Of a stretch of 64,000 nucleotides of DNA, positions 37,779 to 49,169 are shown one piece after another. The DNA comes from Azoarcus sp. (GTDB taxonomy: Bacteria; Pseudomonadota; Gammaproteobacteria; Burkholderiales; Rhodocyclaceae), in contig JAUVVG010000002.1 in NCBI GenBank assembly GCA_030604735.1, forward strand, positions 62,001 through 126,000, in the 5' to 3' direction. The notes beneath the pieces are model-generated. The model was not told the DNA's origin. It saw nothing but the letters and a program-made list of their open reading frames with translations, and did not search any database. The position numbers and the translations under genes were made by a program. The first letter of the stretch is position 1, and each line of letters starts with the position of its first letter.

Positions 37779-39953
37779 TTGGATCGTCTGGAAACCTCTG
37801 CTACCGAACTCTCAGGCGCCGGAACCGCGCCGGCAGGAAGTATGGATAGTTTGCTCGAGTGCCTTATCCTGGTCGCTCGTGCCCATGGTGGGGCATTGAC
37901 CCGCGATGCAGCCTTGGCGGGGCTCCCCATAGAAGGAGGAGCGCTGACGCCGTCGTTGTTCGGACGGGCGGCGAAACGGGCCGGGTTGTCGGCGCGCAAT
38001 GTCGCGCAGCCATTGGTACGGCTCAATGAGGCCTTGTTTCCCGCGATCCTTTTGCTCAAGGGTAATCAGGCCTGTGTTCTGGTGGGATGGAAGGAGCATC
38101 GAAAGCTCGCGATCGTGATTTTTCCCGAGCTGGGAGAAGCCACGGTCGAGATGCCTGCAACCGAATTGGCTGCACGCTATACCGGTCGTGCCCTCTATGT
38201 ACGACCCAAGTTCCGCTTCGATGCCCGCACCCCGGTGGTCAAGTCGTCCAAGCGTGACCATTGGTTCTGGGGTGTCATTTCCGAGAACAGCCGGCTGTAC
38301 CGGGATATCCTTTTCGCGGCGGCGATGATCAACATCTTCGCCGTTGCGATGCCTTTGTTCGTTATGAACGTCTATGACCGGGTCGTGCCGAACAACGCGA
38401 TTGAAACGCTATGGGTGCTGGCGGCCGGTGTCGGTCTGGTGCTGCTGGCTGACTTCGTGCTGCGGACGATGCGTGGCTACTTCGTCGATCTGGCGGGCAG
38501 TCGCGCCGATGTCAAGTTGTCGGCCTATGTGATGGAGCGGGTGCTCGGCATGCGCATGGAAACGCGACCGGCCTCGGTCGGCTCGTTTGCCGCCAATCTG
38601 CGCGCCTTCGAATCGGTACGTGACTTCATCAGTTCGGCCACCATCATCGCCTTCATCGACCTGCCGTTCGCATTCCTGTTCCTGGTGGTGATCGCCTGGA
38701 TCTCGCCAACCCTGGTGATTCCATTCGTCGTCGGTATCGCCGCGCTGCTGATCTATTCGATCGCAGTGCAAGGCAAGATGCGCGATCTGGCTAAAACCAC
38801 TTATCGTGCCAGCGCCCAACGCAACGCCACCCTGGTCGAAGGTCTGGTGGGTATCGAAACGGTGAAGACGCTCGGCGCCGAGCATGCCATCCAGCGCAAG
38901 TGGGAGCAGACCGCGGCCTTGCTGTCGTCGGTCGGATCCAAGCTGCGGTTGCTGTCGGCTTCGACCTCTAACTTTGCGCTCTGGATCCAGCATACCGTCA
39001 GCGTGGTGGTGATCGTGATGGGGGTCTATCTGATCGGCGCCAACGAACTGACCATGGGCGGCCTGATCGCCTGCTACCTGTTGTCTTCGCGTGCGATGGC
39101 GCCGGTGAGCCAGACCTCCGGCCTGCTGGTCCAGTATCACAACGCCTCGACCGCGCTGACTGCGCTCGACGGGATGATGGCGCAGGAAGTCGAGCGTCCG
39201 GACGAGGCCGCGTTTATCAGTCGCGGCAAGCTCGAAGGTGGAATCGAGCTGCGCGATGTGAGTTTCGCCTATCCCGGCCAGACCCAACCTGCATTGCGCA
39301 ATGTGAACCTGAAGGTCAAGCCGGGCGAGCATATCGGCATTCTCGGTCGGGTTGGATCGGGCAAGACCACGCTTGAAAAGCTCATTCTCGGACTGTACCG
39401 ACCCACTGGCGGTGCGGTGCTGGTTGACGGCATCGACTTGCGCCAGCTCGATCCTGCCGAACTGCGCAGGAACATCGGCCATGTCGCGCAGGATTTGCTG
39501 CTGTTCTACGGGTCGCTGCGCGAGAATCTGACCCTCGGCGCCCCCTTCGCGGATGACGAACAGGTGGTGCAGGCTGCCAGAACCGCCGGCATCCTGGAAC
39601 TGGTGAATGGCCACCCGCAGGGTTTCGACATGCAGGTCGGGGAGCGCGGTGCCTCGCTCTCCGGTGGACAACGTCAGGCAGTCGCGCTTGCGCGGGCATT
39701 GATCAGCGATCCGTCCATCCTGCTGCTAGACGAGCCGACCTCGTCGATGGACCATTCGACCGAGGAAGAGGTCAAGCGTCAGCTCAAGACCTACGCAGAA
39801 GGCCGCACCATGATTGTGGTGACTCATCGCACCTCATTGCTCGATCTGGTCGATCGCATCGTCGTCATCGATGCCGGGAGAGTCGTTGCGGATGGGCCCA
39901 AGGCACAGGTCGTCGAGGCCTTGCGTCAAGGTCGGGTTGGGAGGGGCGCGTGA
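37779..39953 (+). CDS. Type I secretion system permease/ATPase (LapB-like)
   Basis: 724 aa; degenerate C39-like N-domain, ABC TM region, GRVGSGKTTLEKLILGLYRPTGG, SLSGGQRQAVALARALISDPSILLLDEPTSSMD. Confidence 0.93.
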   Translation: MDRLETSATELSGAGTAPAGSMDSLLECLILVARAHGGALTRDAALAGLPIEGGALTPSLFGRAAKRAGLSARNVAQPLVRLNEALFPAILLLKGNQACVLVGWKEHRKLAIVIFPELGEATVEMPATELAARYTGRALYVRPKFRFDARTPVVKSSKRDHWFWGVISENSRLYRDILFAAAMINIFAVAMPLFVMNVYDRVVPNNAIETLWVLAAGVGLVLLADFVLRTMRGYFVDLAGSRADVKLSAYVMERVLGMRMETRPASVGSFAANLRAFESVRDFISSATIIAFIDLPFAFLFLVVIAWISPTLVIPFVVGIAALLIYSIAVQGKMRDLAKTTYRASAQRNATLVEGLVGIETVKTLGAEHAIQRKWEQTAALLSSVGSKLRLLSASTSNFALWIQHTVSVVVIVMGVYLIGANELTMGGLIACYLLSSRAMAPVSQTSGLLVQYHNASTALTALDGMMAQEVERPDEAAFISRGKLEGGIELRDVSFAYPGQTQPALRNVNLKVKPGEHIGILGRVGSGKTTLEKLILGLYRPTGGAVLVDGIDLRQLDPAELRRNIGHVAQDLLLFYGSLRENLTLGAPFADDEQVVQAARTAGILELVNGHPQGFDMQVGERGASLSGGQRQAVALARALISDPSILLLDEPTSSMDHSTEEEVKRQLKTYAEGRTMIVVTHRTSLLDLVDRIVVIDAGRVVADGPKAQVVEALRQGRVGRGA

Positions 39954-41371
39954 TGTCCAAGAGCGCACAGCAGCAGTTGTTCGAAGGGATCGGCGGTGTG
40001 TCGGCCGGCATGGAGCGGGTCAGCAAGCCGGTTTCCAAGGGTTTGTTTTCCGGGCTCAGGGGGGCGGACGACGATCGAGCTCTGGATTGGGCGACCGATG
40101 CCGATTGGGCGCGGCTGCAGGAAGAGCCTTTACGCGCTCGTTCCATACTGTTGATGATCATCCTGGTGTTCATCGCGTTGGTGATGTGGGCCGGCATTGC
40201 CGAAGTGGATGAGGTCACCCGGGGCGAGGGCCGGGTGATCCCGTCGCGTCAGTTGCAGATCGTGCAATCGGTGGACGGCGGGGTGGTGAGCGAGATCCAT
40301 GTGACCGAAGGCCAGATCGTCGAAGCAGGCGAGCTGCTGCTGCGGGTCGATCCGACCCGTTTCGTCTCGTCGCTGCGTGAGAACCAGGCCCAGTTCCTGA
40401 CCTTGCAGGTTCGGGCTGCCCGCCTGACCGCGCTGACTCAGGGTACGGAGTTTGTCGTGCCGGAGGAAGTCATGCGCGATGCACCAGAGCTCGTCGCGCA
40501 TGAGCAACGGTTGTACCTGTCGAACAAGGCAGAGGTCTCGGCACAGCTGCAGGGTGCAGGAGAACAGGTTTCGCAACGTCGCCAGGAACTCAACGAGGCG
40601 CGCTCGCGTCGGGCCGAGGCGATCAGTGCGATGGGATTGATCGAGAAGGAACTTGAAGTCACGCGGCCCTTGCTGCGCTCGGGCGCGGTGTCCGAAGTCG
40701 AGATCCTGCGCCTGGAGCGCGACCTGGGGCGCTATCGCGGCGAACGCGACCAGGCCGGGGCCCAGATCGCGCGGATCCAGGCTGCGATCGCCGAGGCGGA
40801 ACAGAAGATACAGGAGGTCGAACTCAACTCGCGCAACATCTGGCGCGCCGAGCTCTCGGAGACGCTCGGGCGGCTCGCTGCGCTGACCGAGACCAGCACC
40901 GCGCTGGAAGACCGGGTCAGACATGCCGAAGTGCGCTCGCCGGTGCGCGGCACGGTGTCCCGCCTGCTCGTCAATACCGTGGGTGGCGTGGTGCAGCCCG
41001 GTCGCGAGGTGGTCGAAGTCGTACCGCTGGATGATGCCTTGATTCTCGAGGCGCGCATTCTGCCCAAGGACATCGCTTTCCTGCGTCCGGGGCAGGAAGC
41101 CGTCATCAAGTTTTCGGCTTACGATTTTGCGATCTACGGTGGTCTAGACGCGGTGCTGGAGCATATCAGCGCCGATACCGTCACCGACGACAAAGGCAAT
41201 GCCTTCTATGTGGTGCGTTTGCGTACTCTTGAGACTTCGTTGGGTGACAATCTGCCCATCATCCCGGGTATGGTCGCCACTGTTGACATTCTGACCGGCA
41301 AGAAAACGGTTCTTTCCTACCTGCTAAAGCCCGTCCTGCGGGCCAAGTCCAACGCATTGAGTGAACGATGA
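39950..41371 (+). CDS. HlyD-family T1SS membrane fusion protein (LapC-like)
   Basis: 473 aa; one TM, GEGRVIPSRQLQIVQSVDGGVVSEIHVTEGQIVEAGELLLRVDPTRF; C-terminal RSPVRGTVSRLLVNTVGGVVQPGREVVEVVPLDD. Confidence 0.93.
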   Translation: MMSKSAQQQLFEGIGGVSAGMERVSKPVSKGLFSGLRGADDDRALDWATDADWARLQEEPLRARSILLMIILVFIALVMWAGIAEVDEVTRGEGRVIPSRQLQIVQSVDGGVVSEIHVTEGQIVEAGELLLRVDPTRFVSSLRENQAQFLTLQVRAARLTALTQGTEFVVPEEVMRDAPELVAHEQRLYLSNKAEVSAQLQGAGEQVSQRRQELNEARSRRAEAISAMGLIEKELEVTRPLLRSGAVSEVEILRLERDLGRYRGERDQAGAQIARIQAAIAEAEQKIQEVELNSRNIWRAELSETLGRLAALTETSTALEDRVRHAEVRSPVRGTVSRLLVNTVGGVVQPGREVVEVVPLDDALILEARILPKDIAFLRPGQEAVIKFSAYDFAIYGGLDAVLEHISADTVTDDKGNAFYVVRLRTLETSLGDNLPIIPGMVATVDILTGKKTVLSYLLKPVLRAKSNALSER

Positions 41372-42000
41372 GCGCACATTACTTTTTCGCCCCGTCGTCT
41401 TTCCCGACGCTTCGCTGGGGGCAAGCTTTTCCCGACGCCTGCTTCCTGCATACCGCCGAAGTGCCGGCTAACATGCAAGCCGGCGATATCGCCTGGGTGT
41501 GCGACAATCTCACGGAATGGCAGGTGCTGGTCGCGCGGTTGCGTGTGGACAAACCGGATTGCCCGGTGGTCGTGCTGACCACGGTGCCGAGCCAGGCCTT
41601 TGCCCTGGCCGCCCTGGAACTGGGCGCCCGTGGTGTATGCCATGCCCTGGCCGTGCCCGGCGTGCTGACGGAAGTCGCCGCGGTCGTCAGTCACGGTGGC
41701 CTGTGGGTCGGCCCCGAACTGGTCCAGCGCATGCTCGCAGCGGTGAATGGGCGCCTGGGGGCGACAGACGAAATCAACGGAGATGTCTTGTCCGAGCTTT
41801 CCGATCGGGAAGCCGCGGTCGCTCGTCTGGTGGTGGCCGGTCACTCGAACAAGGAAGTCGCGCAGCGGCTGGTGATCACCGAGCGCACGGTCAAGGCTCA
41901 CCTGTCGTCGATTTTCAACAAGCTTGGCGTGCGGGATCGGCTGCAGCTCATGCTGCGCTGCCGACCCACCTCGGTCCAATCCCCGCCCGCCACAGTCTGA
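41368..42000 (+). CDS. LuxR-family regulator with degenerate receiver
   Basis: 210 aa; HTH LSDREAAVARLVVAGHSNKEVAQRLVITERTVKAHLSSIFNKLGVRDRLQL; 4-nt overlap with the HlyD gene. Confidence 0.88.
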   Translation: MSAHYFFAPSSFPTLRWGQAFPDACFLHTAEVPANMQAGDIAWVCDNLTEWQVLVARLRVDKPDCPVVVLTTVPSQAFALAALELGARGVCHALAVPGVLTEVAAVVSHGGLWVGPELVQRMLAAVNGRLGATDEINGDVLSELSDREAAVARLVVAGHSNKEVAQRLVITERTVKAHLSSIFNKLGVRDRLQLMLRCRPTSVQSPPATV

Positions 42001-42496: not shown

Positions 42497-44062
42497 TCAT
42501 TTCGTTCGATGATCGCCGGACCATGAGCCTATCGACCATAGCCCAAGAGACTTTCCTGCTGAATCGGCCACCACTGCTTCTGGCATCGGAAGTCGGTGTG
42601 GATCAGCGGTCAGATCTAGGCTGGGACTCACTTTGGCTGGGTCACCAGAGTTCCCTGCGGTAGCAGAAAATGGTGCGATCAGGAATTTTGCCCCGGACCG
42701 GGCAATATTTCGCAGGATCAGCGCTTGTTCAGACTGCGTACAGTATTCCAAGACCTCTCGACATAGCACCGCATCACAGCGTGGGAGTTTGTCCCGGGCG
42801 ATATCGGCGACGCAGAAAGTCATCATGGGACGATACGCAAGTCGCTCGATGTTGCATCTGATGACTTCCTCCAGAAGGTCAACCCCGATGTACAGATCCA
42901 GTCCGTCTGCAATGGAAACGATCAAGTCGGAATCACCGCACCCGGCGTCAAGCAAGGATCTGACCTGGAACTGATCCAATAGCACCGGCAAACTACGACG
43001 TAACTCTCGTGTCTGTTTGGCCGTGGACGCCAAGCCACTTCGCGTGTCGTGCTGACCAGCGGGCTGCTCCTGTCTTGCATGCCTGAGCCCGGACTTTCTT
43101 GCAGTGGTCTCGACAGAGGCTGGCATTGGAAAGCGCCCGTCCAAGGCACGCTCACCCAGGACTCTTGCCTGAAAATCGATCCCTGAGTATTCCTGATAGT
43201 CGAAAAGAGAGCGAAGCTTGCCCAGGCCAAAACGATCCAGTTCGCGAAGTGCTTCGACCTCAGGACATCCAATCCCAGAAAGCAAAAAGCTCAATCTACT
43301 GTAGGAGCGCTGGTTCATGACACTCCAGTCACGCTGATCTGACCAGTGCCTCGTTCTGCCCCGTACAGATGAATAGTCGTGATAAAGCAAAACATCATTT
43401 GGCGTAAAAAGATCCCAACCCGCCGTCCACAACCTGACCGCCAGCGAGATCTCTTCTCCGATAAAGTACAGATAAGGGTCGTACGGCACCTCTTCAAATG
43501 CAGTCGCGGGCGCAAAAATACAGCCTGCCCCCACAAAGGCGGAAGGGCTGGGCACTTCTGGTCTATCCTCGTAAGAGAGGATACGTGACCCTAACCTGAC
43601 CACCTTATTGTCCAGAAATTCACGGGCAACCAGCACCGGGATGCGTTTACTGCCAAGTATATCGGGAGGCGTGTAGTCCACAGGGTAGGATGAAAGGATG
43701 GCCTTCTTGGACGGGCAAGACTCCAGCATTGAGATGAAACGTTCATCCCAGCCAGCCTCGAAGCGCATATGGCTGTCGATCTGAAGTACGTACTCCTCAT
43801 CCTTGCGCAGCTCAGTCAGTATCCGCGAACGCGCCCAGCAGACGCCACGAGATTCGCCTGCATGAACGAGGAGGGTACGGAGATGCCCTTTGGGCGCTTT
43901 TCCTCCGACGAACTCCATGTCGAGTTCAGGCACGATTTGCCAGAGTACCCCTGCGAAAACACGATCCGGGTAGCGTGCCTTTGCGAACAGATCACTAATT
44001 GTTGCAGGACACTCGCTGTCTCTGTAACTCGCAATCGATACGAATATTCGTGGGCGCTTCAT
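42497..44062 (-). CDS. GlcNAc-transferase (Skp1/GT60-like) fused to class I SAM methyltransferase domain
   Basis: 521 aa from MKRPRIFVSIASYRDSECPATISDLFAKARYPDRVFAGVLWQ; QIDSHMRFEAGWDERFISML; RLWTAGWDLFTPNDVLLYHDY; then LLDAGCGDSDLIVSIADGLDLYIGVDLLEEVI...CREVLEY. Start moved downstream of ORF 44119 because a terminator hairpin lies there. Confidence 0.8.
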   Translation of the reverse strand: MKRPRIFVSIASYRDSECPATISDLFAKARYPDRVFAGVLWQIVPELDMEFVGGKAPKGHLRTLLVHAGESRGVCWARSRILTELRKDEEYVLQIDSHMRFEAGWDERFISMLESCPSKKAILSSYPVDYTPPDILGSKRIPVLVAREFLDNKVVRLGSRILSYEDRPEVPSPSAFVGAGCIFAPATAFEEVPYDPYLYFIGEEISLAVRLWTAGWDLFTPNDVLLYHDYSSVRGRTRHWSDQRDWSVMNQRSYSRLSFLLSGIGCPEVEALRELDRFGLGKLRSLFDYQEYSGIDFQARVLGERALDGRFPMPASVETTARKSGLRHARQEQPAGQHDTRSGLASTAKQTRELRRSLPVLLDQFQVRSLLDAGCGDSDLIVSIADGLDLYIGVDLLEEVIRCNIERLAYRPMMTFCVADIARDKLPRCDAVLCREVLEYCTQSEQALILRNIARSGAKFLIAPFSATAGNSGDPAKVSPSLDLTADPHRLPMPEAVVADSAGKSLGLWSIGSWSGDHRTK

Positions 44063-44089
44063 TGGAGTAGGTACTTGTTTTGCGCAGTA

Positions 44090-44126
44090 AAAAAATGTGG
44101 CAGGACTAGCCTGCCACATTAGTGCG
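44090..44126. terminator. Terminator hairpin between retention-module gene and glycosyltransferase gene
   Basis: AATGTGGCAGG-ACTA-GCCTGCCACATT, preceded by A-run on + strand (T-run for minus-strand transcripts). Confidence 0.8.
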
Positions 44127-44158
44127 CTTCGTTTTATTAACGGGAGCCGTCTGAAAAC

Positions 44159-46213
44159 TTACTCGGGGCCGTTCGCTTTATCAATCAGTTGTCCGATCGC
44201 ATCATTTGTGAATGTGATGCTAAATGAGTCAGAAGCCCAGTCGCCGTCGAAGTCAGTTGCTTTCACGTCGACATTTACAAGGACGTCTGCCAGTTCGGTA
44301 GAGGTTTCAATGAATTTCCCGCTGAAATTCTCTATCCGGTAACCATTGCTGCCTCCTGTCGAAATATCCTGGAACTCGATCCGGACGAAATTATCCGTCA
44401 AATTGATCGAGATCAGCTGATCCGCATTTGCATTTGACCCGTTCCCTATCCCAGCAACATCGCTTGTGCCAGCAACACTTCCATCAGCACGGTAAGCCGT
44501 CCAGCGCAGCGCTTCTCCATTGTCTAGATGGTCCGCAGTGAAGCTAAACGAGGAAATCGGCAGCGGATTGCCTCCTGCATCCTGAATCTCCAGGACCAGA
44601 GTCTCACCTGGGTCAATCTTGGCTCCTGTTCCTACGCCGATGCCTTGAGTGGAGTAGTTCACGGAATTGCCATCGTTCGCAGTAAACACCATTTCGGCAT
44701 CACTACCGTTGATGGGTAGCTTAACCACGTTGCCGCCCCCATTGCTTGACCCGGACCACGAGAACCCAGTTTCGGTGGTCGTGATCGCTTGATCAAGAAT
44801 GTCAAGCAACTCTACCTGGTAACCACCTTCTGCATTCGGCAGTACATAGAACACGGTAGAACCATCACCTGTCTCGGCTACCAGTTTGCCGGCATCGGCG
44901 TCCCAACGGTACGACAACGCCTGGTCGTTAGAAGTCAGTGCTACGGACTCACCGTTGACAGTGCCAAACACAGTTCCGGAATTGGTCATGGCCAATCCGC
45001 CAAAACCATCGCCGCCGAAGCTGATATCCAGCTCACCGAAACCGAGAAGGCCTTCAAGCGTGATGTTATTCGCGTCGATAATGGGCGAGTCATCTTCCAC
45101 CATGACCGTCAAAGCCGTCGAAGTGGTCAGTTCTCCGTCTGACACGGTGACACCGAACACCAGAGACAGTATGTCCTCTTGGCCTTCGCCTTTCACCGGA
45201 TGATCCAGAGGCCCGCTCAACTCGACGGCGTACTCGCCAGCATTATTGATGGTGACACGAATCACATCGGAACCACCTGCGCGACCGATCAGTTCACCGC
45301 TACCGGCGCCAAACCACTCGATCTCTACCCCGCCTGAGTAGAACTCGCCTTCCGGCGCAGAGAGCGTGACCGCGAGAGGATCACCGTCTGGATCACTGAT
45401 CACCAATGTTCCAGTAACAGTTTTAGCATTGGTTGTGTCGGTCGGGACGCCAGTCGTGTCGGGATTCCCCCCTGGCAGCCCTTCTTCTGAAACACTTGTA
45501 GTCGCTGGCTGTGCTTGCGGCTCACGATTCGGCGGCTCGGTCACAGGCGGCTCGGTCACCGGCGGCTCGGTCACAGGCGGCTCGGTCACAGGGGGCTCGG
45601 TCGCAGGCGGCTCGGTCACCGGCGGCTCGGTTACAGGGGGCTCGGTCACCGGCGGCTCGGTCACAGGCGGCTCGGTCACAGGCGGTTCGGTCACAGGCGG
45701 TTCGGTCGCAGGCGGTTCGGTCGCAGGCGGTTCGTCGCCAGGTAACCCATCCACCGACACCAGTTCCCCCTGGGCTAACGGCGCGTACTCGAATTCGACG
45801 CCGGTCGTATCCTCATCCACCCGTAGGAGACGAATGAACTCAGTCCCACCACCGCCACCGCCATCGCCACCGCCGGCTGCGGCAGCTTCGAGCTCTTCGG
45901 TGAGGTCGGCGCCTTCCTCAAGGAGCTGCAGAATCTCATTGACTTCGGCGACGGTGCTCTGCTGTACGGCGGCTTCAGCGGCGTCGGGCAGGGCGTCGCC
46001 TTGGGCGACGGTCTCGTCCAGGCGCAGAACTTGATCTGGGGCCATGCCGATGACCTGGCCGTCTTCGAGCAGGAGCTCGACCCGGGCGCCGGCTTCGGTG
46101 CGGATGGTTTCGCCGCGCTGGATCACGTCGTTTGCCTGCAGCGGGCGGGTGGAGCCGTCGGTGGCGACGACGAAGGCGTTGCCGGTGACGGACAGTACGG
46201 TGGCGGTGGCCAT
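44159..46213 (-). CDS. Retention-module-containing (LapA-like) T1SS substrate, short form
   Basis: MATATVLSVTGNAFVVATDGSTRPLQANDVIQRGETIRTEAGARVELLLEDGQVIGMAPDQVLRLDE; AAAAGGG LapG-like site; (PPxTE)13 linker; C-terminal beta-sandwich VDVKATDFDGDWASDSFSITF. Confidence 0.88.
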   Translation of the reverse strand: MATATVLSVTGNAFVVATDGSTRPLQANDVIQRGETIRTEAGARVELLLEDGQVIGMAPDQVLRLDETVAQGDALPDAAEAAVQQSTVAEVNEILQLLEEGADLTEELEAAAAGGGDGGGGGGTEFIRLLRVDEDTTGVEFEYAPLAQGELVSVDGLPGDEPPATEPPATEPPVTEPPVTEPPVTEPPVTEPPVTEPPVTEPPATEPPVTEPPVTEPPVTEPPVTEPPNREPQAQPATTSVSEEGLPGGNPDTTGVPTDTTNAKTVTGTLVISDPDGDPLAVTLSAPEGEFYSGGVEIEWFGAGSGELIGRAGGSDVIRVTINNAGEYAVELSGPLDHPVKGEGQEDILSLVFGVTVSDGELTTSTALTVMVEDDSPIIDANNITLEGLLGFGELDISFGGDGFGGLAMTNSGTVFGTVNGESVALTSNDQALSYRWDADAGKLVAETGDGSTVFYVLPNAEGGYQVELLDILDQAITTTETGFSWSGSSNGGGNVVKLPINGSDAEMVFTANDGNSVNYSTQGIGVGTGAKIDPGETLVLEIQDAGGNPLPISSFSFTADHLDNGEALRWTAYRADGSVAGTSDVAGIGNGSNANADQLISINLTDNFVRIEFQDISTGGSNGYRIENFSGKFIETSTELADVLVNVDVKATDFDGDWASDSFSITFTNDAIGQLIDKANGPE
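45531..45732 (-). repeat. 15-bp tandem repeat encoding PPVTE/PPATE linker
   Basis: ggcggctcggtcaca/ggcggctcggtcacc units on + strand, about 13 PPxTE units in frame. Confidence 0.93.
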
Positions 46214-46421: not shown

Positions 46422-48353
46422 TCAGCGGGCGGTCGGCTCCATGACCGCCGGGCCAGTAGCGCCGTCGAAGCCGAGGGTGACAATGGTGTCGACTTCCTGC
46501 TGGTTGCGCACGCCGACGGCGATCACCAGGATGCCTATGCTATGCACCATCTTGCACAGGCCCTTGAGGAATTCCTGGTTGCCCTCGTTCTGGTCGATGC
46601 CGCGGATGAAACCGCTGTCGACCTTGACGTAGTCGACGCCGATGTCGGCGAGCTTGTTGACCTCCGACAGCTTGCGGCCGAAGTATTCGATGCCGATCCG
46701 GCAGCCCAGTGGCTTGAGGGTGGAGCACAGCTCGCGGAAGGCTTCGAAATGGGTGAAGACGCCATGCTCGGGGACCTCGACCCACAAGCGCGAGCACAGG
46801 CCGGATTCGTTGCGCAGCAAGGCCAGTAGTGCATTATGGAAATTCCAGTTGGCGATGGCTTCGGCGGTGAGGTTGACTGCGAAATCGCCTTCCTGGCCGC
46901 GCAAGTGGTTCAAGGCGAGCCGCACCACGCTCAGGTCCAGGTTAGTTGTCAGGTCCAGGCGTACCGCGTAGTGCATGAAGTCGCCCGCCGGCCGCCATGG
47001 GCCGTCGACTTCGGTCTGCATCCGGACCAGTCCTTCGTGATGGATGGCGCGGCCGTCCGAGGTGACGACCGGGAAGGCGACCAGCTTGATGCGGTCTTCG
47101 TTAAGCGCTTCGGTGATCAGGGTGCGCCAGGTTTCCGATGGCAGGGCGACGATATCTGAGGCTAAGCCTTCGTGGACGGTGAAGCCATTGCCTCGGGCCG
47201 CTTCGGCCTGGGCCAGGACCTGGTCGGTGGCTGACAGTACTGCGCTCATTGCGTCACCGCGGCTGTAGCGTACCGCACCGACATGGAAGAACTCGTCCAG
47301 CTCGGGGGCATTGTTCAATCGCAGCGCCTCTATGCGTTTGGCGAGTTCGGTCGCGAGCGAGAGAACGTCCACCTGGTTCTGCGCGAGGATGGCAAAGTCC
47401 GGGCCGTTGAGTCGCGCGGGAAGCCATCTGTCGTGATCTCCGCAAATGGCTTTGAGCTGGTCGCCGATGTCGCGCAGCAAAGCGTCGGTTTGGATGCGGC
47501 CAAGCGTGCGGTTGATTGCGACCAGGTCCTTCATGCGCAGGAAGGCCAGGGCACCATAGGGGGCCGACTCTTCGCTTTCGAGTGCCTCGCGCAGCCGGCT
47601 CATGAAATAGTCGCGGTTGGGAAGGCCGCTGACCGGCTCGTGGTTGAGTTTCTTGCGCATCGCGTCCAGGCGGGAGGCCTCTTCCGCGAACATCTGCTTG
47701 ACCCGGGCGACCATGTCGTTCATTGCAGAGACCACGCTCTTGAGTTCGGGTACGCCGGGTTCGGTGACCGAGATGAAGCGGCGCTCGGTGATTGCGTGGG
47801 CCTGCGCGACCACGTCATCGAGTGGCCGGGTGATCAGGCGCAGGATCAGGGTCCCGAGGAAGCCCGCAGCGAGTCCGCCGACGATGAACCAAGCGGTCAG
47901 TCGCAGCGTGCCCTGCCAGAGATCCTGGTAGGCGAACTTGCTGTGGCTGGCGAGCGTGATGGTGCCGTATTGCTGCCAGCCGTCCTGGATGAAGGCACTG
48001 CCGGGCTCTGCATCGATTGGCAGCAAGGCCATGAACCAGGCCGGCGCGCCGATATCGATATCGTCGTCGGCGACCCTTTCGACGATGATTCGTCCTTCAG
48101 GGTCGGCCAGCACGATGGATTGGTAATGGCCGTTGTCGAACAGCGCGCTGAGCAGCAGCTGCATCATCACCTCGTCCTTGTCCTGCTGCTGCGACATCGA
48201 GAGCGCCAGCGCGGTGGCGTTGTCCTTGTTCTTGATGAACAGCTGCTTTTCGAGGTAGCCCCGGGCGGTGAGGGTATTGACGGTGAGGCTGCCAATGAAG
48301 GCGGCCAGCGTCAGTCCGATGACCATGAGCCAGATGCGTCGGAACAGGGACAT
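46422..48353 (-). CDS. lapD: LapD-like inside-out c-di-GMP receptor (LapD_MoxY_N-HAMP-degenerate GGDEF-degenerate EAL)
   Basis: 643 aa; MSLFRRIWLMVIGLTLAAFIGSLTVNTLTARGYLEKQL; periplasmic domain; GGDEF replaced by RLNGPDFAIL; EAL replaced by HHEGLVRMQ. Confidence 0.9.
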   Translation of the reverse strand: MSLFRRIWLMVIGLTLAAFIGSLTVNTLTARGYLEKQLFIKNKDNATALALSMSQQQDKDEVMMQLLLSALFDNGHYQSIVLADPEGRIIVERVADDDIDIGAPAWFMALLPIDAEPGSAFIQDGWQQYGTITLASHSKFAYQDLWQGTLRLTAWFIVGGLAAGFLGTLILRLITRPLDDVVAQAHAITERRFISVTEPGVPELKSVVSAMNDMVARVKQMFAEEASRLDAMRKKLNHEPVSGLPNRDYFMSRLREALESEESAPYGALAFLRMKDLVAINRTLGRIQTDALLRDIGDQLKAICGDHDRWLPARLNGPDFAILAQNQVDVLSLATELAKRIEALRLNNAPELDEFFHVGAVRYSRGDAMSAVLSATDQVLAQAEAARGNGFTVHEGLASDIVALPSETWRTLITEALNEDRIKLVAFPVVTSDGRAIHHEGLVRMQTEVDGPWRPAGDFMHYAVRLDLTTNLDLSVVRLALNHLRGQEGDFAVNLTAEAIANWNFHNALLALLRNESGLCSRLWVEVPEHGVFTHFEAFRELCSTLKPLGCRIGIEYFGRKLSEVNKLADIGVDYVKVDSGFIRGIDQNEGNQEFLKGLCKMVHSIGILVIAVGVRNQQEVDTIVTLGFDGATGPAVMEPTAR

Positions 48354-48422: not shown

Positions 48423-49169
48423 TCATGACAGCCCTTCCTGGTGCATGCGTTCGAGTACCTCGCGCCATCGCGACAGACGTGCTGTCGGGTCGGCGGCCGA
48501 AGTGGTGGCGCCGCCAGCCCACAGACCTTCGCTGTTGAACGAGAACACCGGTGACAGGTCTCGCCGTCGCGAAGCCGGGCGGATGTCGCCGATGATGTTG
48601 TCGAGAATCAATGGTTCGGCGGTGGGAGTGGCGTAGTAGCCCAGCACCATGTGCGCCTCGTCGATGCCGCTGGCCGCGCCACCGGTTCGTGCGCGGACGT
48701 AGATCATGCGCATCCTGTCGTTTGCCACGCCGCCCAGGCGCAGGCTCATGTACTTTGCGATCGCGTAATCTTCACAGTCGCCCGCAGCCCGGCCCAGGGT
48801 TTCGAGCGGTGTGGCCCAGTAGTCGTTCACCTTCCAGTTGGCGATGTCGGTCATGTAGCGAACGCGTCGGTTGAAAAAGGTGTTGACGGTTGTGAGCTTC
48901 TGGCGCTCTTCCTGGTCCAGGATCAGGGCGATCATGTCGCGCCATGCAATGACCGCCTCCGTACCGGCTGGACCGTATCGCTCACCGGCAATCCGCTGCA
49001 TCCGGTCGAAATCGGCCCTGAGGCCATGTGCGGGGCGGCGCAGAAGTAACAGCGGTACAAAGGCCGCTGCGCCGAACAAGAAGCGTCTTCGATTGAAACG
49101 ACCATTCCCCGCCGGGCAGTCGGCGCCGGAGGTGACGCCGGTGGAGGGGGGGCGGTAGGGGGCGGTCAT
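48423..49169 (-). CDS. lapG: LapG-like transglutaminase-like cysteine protease
   Basis: 248 aa; VNTFFNRRVRYMTDIANWKVNDYWATPLETLGRAAGDCEDYAIAKYMSL; downstream of lapD. Confidence 0.92.
   Translation of the reverse strand: MTAPYRPPSTGVTSGADCPAGNGRFNRRRFLFGAAAFVPLLLLRRPAHGLRADFDRMQRIAGERYGPAGTEAVIAWRDMIALILDQEERQKLTTVNTFFNRRVRYMTDIANWKVNDYWATPLETLGRAAGDCEDYAIAKYMSLRLGGVANDRMRMIYVRARTGGAASGIDEAHMVLGYYATPTAEPLILDNIIGDIRPASRRRDLSPVFSFNSEGLWAGGATTSAADPTARLSRWREVLERMHQEGLS

Follow-up and report, generated by a model that had tools for sequence, protein, structure and literature searches.

What is a glycosyltransferase doing in a locus for a surface adhesin controlled by cyclic di-GMP (c-di-GMP)? The question arises from a 64,000-nucleotide stretch of Azoarcus sp. 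DNA (contig JAUVVG010000002.1, positions 62,001 to 126,000; hereafter the window), in which a minus-strand gene encoding a GT60-family glycosyltransferase (GT) fused to a methyltransferase (MT; 42497–44119) lies 40 bp past the gene of a 684-amino-acid (aa) retention-module protein, its putative substrate (44159–46213, minus strand). On the basis of family, fold, gene order and recurrence in other genomes, we argue that this GT60-MT protein is probably a cytoplasmic enzyme that glycosylates threonine in a Thr/Pro-rich linker of the co-encoded adhesin before its type I secretion.

GT60 family and fold in a complete Lap locus

The open reading frame matches PF11397 with an E-value of 4.6e-69 (234 bits, against a cut-off of 21 bits) over its catalytic domain, bearing out a sequence-only reading of the window that had seen a Skp1-type GT60 domain at the N terminus. 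The structure prediction that this reading proposed gave an AlphaFold model, built from a 54-sequence alignment, with a predicted local distance difference test score (pLDDT) of 91.3 and a predicted template modelling score (pTM) of 0.88; alignment, model and fold search together place a GT-A-fold domain at 43160–44050 (minus strand). In a structure search of the PDB, the model came closest to GT27: the best 46 matches by E-value are all GT27 polypeptide GalNAc-transferases (top 1.8e-12), many of them with EA2 or Muc5AC mucin peptides bound. Sequence identity in these alignments is about 12–18%, and the template modelling (TM) scores, normalised by query length, are 0.35–0.42 because the query holds two domains. 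A sequence search of the PDB with GT60-MT returned methyltransferases only and no GT60 structure. Residues D115, H117, E222, E223 and H247 are invariant in the alignment of 54 homologues, and the DSH motif at residues 115–117 (43769–43777, minus strand) occupies what we take to be the position of the GT27 DxH metal motif.

Within the family, TcOGNT1 makes GlcNAc-alpha-O-Thr on Trypanosoma cruzi mucins (PMC9472816), GT60 enzymes catalyse the first step of mucin-type O-glycosylation in protists (PMC8724618) and Skp1 Gnt1 modifies a hydroxyproline of Skp1 (PMC6939170). Family and modelled fold thus support a polypeptide O-glycosyltransferase as the predicted activity of the gene product.

The adjacent 684-aa protein carries a LapA-type retention module (45797–46207; NF033682, 2.6e-27), with a LapG-type AAAG site read from the sequence near its end, and a T1SS-143 repeat domain (45062–45343; TIGR03660, 1.3e-19), both on the minus strand. 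Between these domains lies an array of 13 PP(V/A)TE units (45530–45734, minus strand), a putative glycosylated linker found by repeat detection and inspection. It has a period of 15 and 13.6 copies, with 13 Thr and 28 Pro within residues 162–228, in agreement with the roughly 13 PPVTE/PPATE units counted before.

Around GT60-MT the Lap locus is complete. A LapD-like c-di-GMP receptor (46422–48353, by profile match) and a LapG-like cysteine protease (48423–49169; PF06035, with NF045674 at 2.1e-66 but under that profile's cut-off) lie upstream, on the same minus strand as the adhesin. From the opposite side, on the plus strand, converge the LssB-type permease/ATPase of a type I secretion system (T1SS), an ATP-binding cassette (ABC) transporter (37779–39953; TIGR03375, 2.5e-297), its HlyD-type adaptor (39950–41371; TIGR01843, 9.1e-118) and a LuxR-type regulator (41368–42000, by profile match), which occupies the same place between HlyD and GT60-MT in the Rhodocyclales loci L052 and L057. 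All parts are clear by profile, and the placement of the gene between T1SS operon and retention-module gene, as first described, holds. Genome-wide there is a single GT60 and a single retention module over the cut-off; a second retention-module-like match (C74) fell under it, resembles a LysM/FecR-type protein and was set aside.

Recurrence of GT60 with type I secretion and Thr/Pro arrays

PF11397 is rare, with counts of 7/299 genomes for the family, 9/300 for the order, 4/369 for the class and 29/399 for the sample of the phylum. A single-protein query gave no match in scans of genome contigs or viral contigs, but querying 85,462 species genomes with an alignment did find relatives, 488 in all, the best 80 of which gave 79 loci. 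Neighbourhoods were taken as within 10 kb of GT60, on contigs that are often broken and, when assembled from short reads, frequently stop within an array. T1SS, Lap or RTX genes are present in 34 of the 79 loci, and either these or Thr/Pro arrays in 51, so the pairing, whose absence from other genomes would have counted against the sequence-only reading, recurs. Arrays were flagged in 29 loci and retained in 23 after inspection; the calls in L048, L065, L074, L077, L079 and L098 were dropped as Pro-rich, weak or out of frame.

As controls we took 34 random regions, each of 20 kb, out of GT60-positive genomes. None contained an array (against 23/79; Fisher p = 1.8e-4) and none a T1SS transporter (against 34/79 for T1SS, Lap or RTX genes; p = 3e-7), in tests that ignore relatedness and on loci that form a best-hit sample. 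Retention proteins were compared as well: six of the nine beside a GT60 carry an array (those of the window, Thauera, L052, L057, L095 and L111, but not those of Methylophaga L119, L121 and L122), against none of 68 taken from family members that lack GT60 (p about 3e-7, calculated with 69 instead of 68).

The pairing extends across Beta-, Alpha- and Gammaproteobacteria and Magnetococcales, with arrays that are unrelated in sequence. Within the family, the Thauera GT60-MT (G278) lies between LapD and a (TTEPP)n adhesin; in other members the gene stands after a T1SS protein whose TVTETPTPTP and TTKPE arrays are very long (G147), after a TTTAAP array (G183) or, behind T1SS genes, ahead of a protein bearing a TPEPTTTPEP array (G271). 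Outside the fused group, on a closed plasmid of Phyllobacterium zundukense, an RTX protein with a Thr/Pro array, GT60, the T1SS ABC gene and HlyD stand in a row. Many Magnetococcales have GT60-MT within a T1SS operon, between HlyD and an ABC protein of about 1300 aa, where a neighbouring gene encodes a SPOR-domain outer-membrane efflux protein. The GT tree places the window sister to Thauera (100/93) in a 15-row clade, 14 rows of which have T1SS, Lap or array neighbours, and arrays are scattered over the tree, forcing at least 17 label changes.

Array units vary by genome (TTEPP, TETPAP, TDTPAP, TEAP, PTTTGAP, PTTTSA, TKTPSPTHTNAP, TATPEPTTTPAP and TTEPPV among them), so that the arrays have a Thr/Pro pattern in common, without homology in sequence. 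Together the arrays comprise 31.6% Thr, 27.5% Pro, 14.3% Ala, 7.4% Glu and 3.4% Ser, presenting clustered Thr in a Pro-rich carrier as mucin-type substrates do. The recurrent pairing and a family and predicted fold of polypeptide O-glycosyltransferases support the suggestion, made in the sequence-only reading, that the enzyme may modify the linker.

A proposed pathway and its rivals

T1SS substrates leave the cytoplasm unfolded in a single step, and a GT60 without a signal peptide must therefore act before export, as the cytoplasmic transferase HMW1C does for another secretion route. By family precedent, the sugar added to linker Thr would be GlcNAc. Its position immediately after the LapG cleavage region would bring the linker of a tethered adhesin to the outer-membrane exit or slightly beyond it; there, as in mucins, glycosylation would make it stiffer and shield or protect it. 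Next would come the methyltransferase, acting on the sugar or the chain; in relatives, the probable target of the fused domain is the added sugar or the chain so modified.

Several observations weigh against this account. The 79 loci are the most similar of the 488 relatives, neither random nor phylogenetically independent, and 28 of them have neither secretion genes nor arrays, for which contig breaks account in part, but not entirely. Three Methylophaga loci (L119, L121 and L122) combine an adhesin-linked GT60 with no Thr/Pro array nearby, and across the arrays Pro is as constant as Thr. Furthermore, a Pfam RTX profile search found no recognisable RTX/T1SS C-terminal domain in the 684-aa adhesin, and TIGR03661 has no match anywhere in its genome. 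Of 50 sequences compared, that of the window has the lowest ratio of MT to GT identity, and its methyltransferase is changed at positions invariant or near-invariant in about 49 relatives (F345L, W399L, H459Y, W498S and others).

These last points also speak for a different view of the Azoarcus copy, namely that the module is a partial relic: with the T1SS-targeting end of the adhesin lost and the methyltransferase decayed, it would bring little or no glycosylated adhesin to the surface. An RTX-like domain closes the Thauera adhesin but not the window protein (stop region 44159–44300), which is either secreted through an unrecognised signal or truncated. The MT domain of its partner (42530–43015, minus strand) is still a class I methyltransferase by profile (Methyltransf_25, 5.5e-7, over the cut-off, as is Methyltransf_11; residues about 369–485), as first proposed for the region behind the GT domain, and retains motif I, LLDAGCGDSDL; on comparison with relatives it is diverged and looks decayed. 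The GT domain, by contrast, departs from its relatives at just two highly conserved columns, the array, retention module, LapD, LapG and T1SS are intact and the adhesin gene has its own terminator, and we consider a relic somewhat unlikely. Even so, it is the set of related loci, rather than the window copy, that mainly carries the finding.

Two further alternatives concern the acceptor. The first step could be hydroxylation of array Pro by a 2-oxoglutarate (2OG)-Fe(II) oxygenase, with GT60 glycosylating the hydroxyproline, as in plant extensins or the Skp1 pathway, whose Gnt1 is itself a GT60 acting on hydroxyproline (PMC6939170). Fusions of GT60 to 2OG oxygenases (G960, G1242 and L116/L123/L124) make such a route plausible in some lineages. 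In the Azoarcus genome, one PF13640 protein, 49 kb from GT60, is homologous to the oxygenase part of the Rickettsiales fusions (1.1e-43), and four of five array-bearing genomes of the family have one PF13640 protein, a weak hint in favour of this route. The background rate in the family is 34/151, in counts that are approximate since the run missed the match in the Azoarcus genome itself. However, this oxygenase type occurs in 2 of 38 GT60-positive and 1 of 42 other genomes and, apart from the fusions, has no homologue in the 79 neighbourhoods; a PF13640 match is absent from 16 of 28 GT60-positive genomes tested, the array-bearing G271 included. A co-encoded prolyl hydroxylase was sought and none was found in the locus, the oxygenase 49 kb away being unlinked. 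For the T1SS-linked GT60 group the hydroxyproline route is not favoured, and we regard it as unlikely. More improbable still is that the enzyme makes or decorates an exopolysaccharide or other surface glycan, its place in the Lap locus reflecting joint regulation of biofilm formation. Many glycan-directed enzymes share the GT-A fold, and the distant GT60s L031, L033 and L043 lie outside T1SS loci; yet the closest folds act on polypeptides, and a glycan target would explain neither why Thr/Pro arrays accompany GT60 in T1SS, plasmid and contractile-injection settings nor why GT60-negative retention proteins lack them.

Related systems and other GT60 contexts

The protist alpha-GlcNAc-transferases such as TcOGNT1 (PMC9472816, PMC8724618) belong to the same Pfam and CAZy family, with Thr/Pro-rich mucin-like repeats as known substrates where ours are putative; they are Golgi enzymes of the secretory pathway, whereas the window GT60 has no visible export signal, carries a fused methyltransferase and is encoded beside a T1SS adhesin. 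Skp1 Gnt1 (PMC6939170), of the same family, is cytoplasmic and targets one hydroxyproline of a soluble protein, whereas the window locus has no dedicated prolyl hydroxylase. The GT27 enzymes, which are the closest solved folds despite their low identity (about 12–18%), have a lectin domain that the window GT60 lacks.

Cytoplasmic transferases encoded beside the one surface adhesin that they modify are familiar from HMW1C, the AIDA-I heptosyltransferases and Gtf1/2 of serine-rich repeat proteins. GT60-MT resembles them in being a predicted cytoplasmic transferase next to an adhesin gene, but they belong to other enzyme families, serve other secretion routes and have neither Thr/Pro arrays nor an MT fusion. 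With LapA/LapD/LapG systems, the window locus has in common the retention module, LapD, LapG and the LssB-type T1SS; to these it adds the GT60-MT gene and the Thr/Pro linker, found in 0/68 GT60-negative relatives. No paper connecting GT60 with bacterial adhesins or with type I secretion, and none describing a glycosylated LapA-type adhesin, came up in a search of the open-licence PubMed Central literature.

Mucin-type O-glycosylation is regarded as eukaryotic, and the pairing across unrelated bacteria points to an undescribed bacterial form of it. In its widest form, for which we see the chances as about even, a GT60 branch fused to methyltransferases or 2OG oxygenases would modify Thr/Pro arrays on co-encoded exported proteins, including LapA-type adhesins, other T1SS proteins and contractile-tail sheaths; the arrays would arise repeatedly, each time in another sequence, since only the Thr/Pro pattern is selected, and the protist GT60 pathways could derive from the bacterial ones or share their origin, which becomes testable. 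If true, having an obvious substrate encoded alongside would make a bacterial GT60 a simple, soluble assay system, bacterial proteins annotated as GlcNAc-transferase family members would gain a role, and c-di-GMP-controlled adhesion an additional modification step.

One detail of the window concerns gene boundaries. An intrinsic terminator (44094–44120, minus strand) with an 11-bp stem and a U-tract (fold z −3.85 for a 91-nt stretch) separates the adhesin and GT60 genes and engulfs the nominal GT60 ATG at 44119. Because the terminator contains that codon, translation probably starts at the ATG at 44062 (MKRPRIFVSIASY...), giving 521 aa in place of the 540 called; the first 15 or so residues of the 540-aa version are of low confidence in the AlphaFold model.

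Beyond the fused group, GT60 occurs in further settings. On an Azospirillum thermophilum plasmid (L232, 7995–13222) it lies in a contractile-injection cluster whose sheath and a neighbouring protein carry TPTPTP runs, which suggests that the sheath may be glycosylated. A Klebsiella aerogenes plasmid has GT60 adjoining a protein with PTPTPSPTPTP, and on Burkholderia (L233) and Paraburkholderia (L237) plasmids it lies in type VI secretion clusters, beside a fimbrial-annotated protein and an RHS/PAAR pair, with no array. The GT60-2OG-oxygenase fusion of G960 (L272, 6106–11806) stands beside two paralogous RTX proteins with swapped linkers, (TPTPEP)n in one and collagen-like GPTGET repeats in the other, and that of G1242 (L271, 6044–8671) unites 2OG oxygenase, GT60 and tubulin-tyrosine-ligase-like domains in a single protein. 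In L116, L123 and L124 (Rickettsiales, an alphaproteobacterial metagenome-assembled genome), giant proteins of 1800–2450 aa all match the Azoarcus oxygenase; in that of L116, several GT60 domains are combined with 2OG-Fe(II) oxygenase domains and one of the AhpC/redoxin type. L066 and L072 encode GT60-MT proteins of 1670 aa; that of L066 has an N-terminal HtrL_YibB domain and duplicated GT60-MT units, and L072 is a near-copy.

Finally, the T1SS-linked non-retention proteins of L117 (5604–7916), L028 and L030 have in common both a Thr/Pro array and, at the N terminus, the motif LFD(E/D)(L/M)T, and are possibly a second substrate class. By pattern, LFDxLT is found in only two loci (L030 and L117), and it was also read in L028; the L117 and L028 proteins terminate in an aromatic residue.

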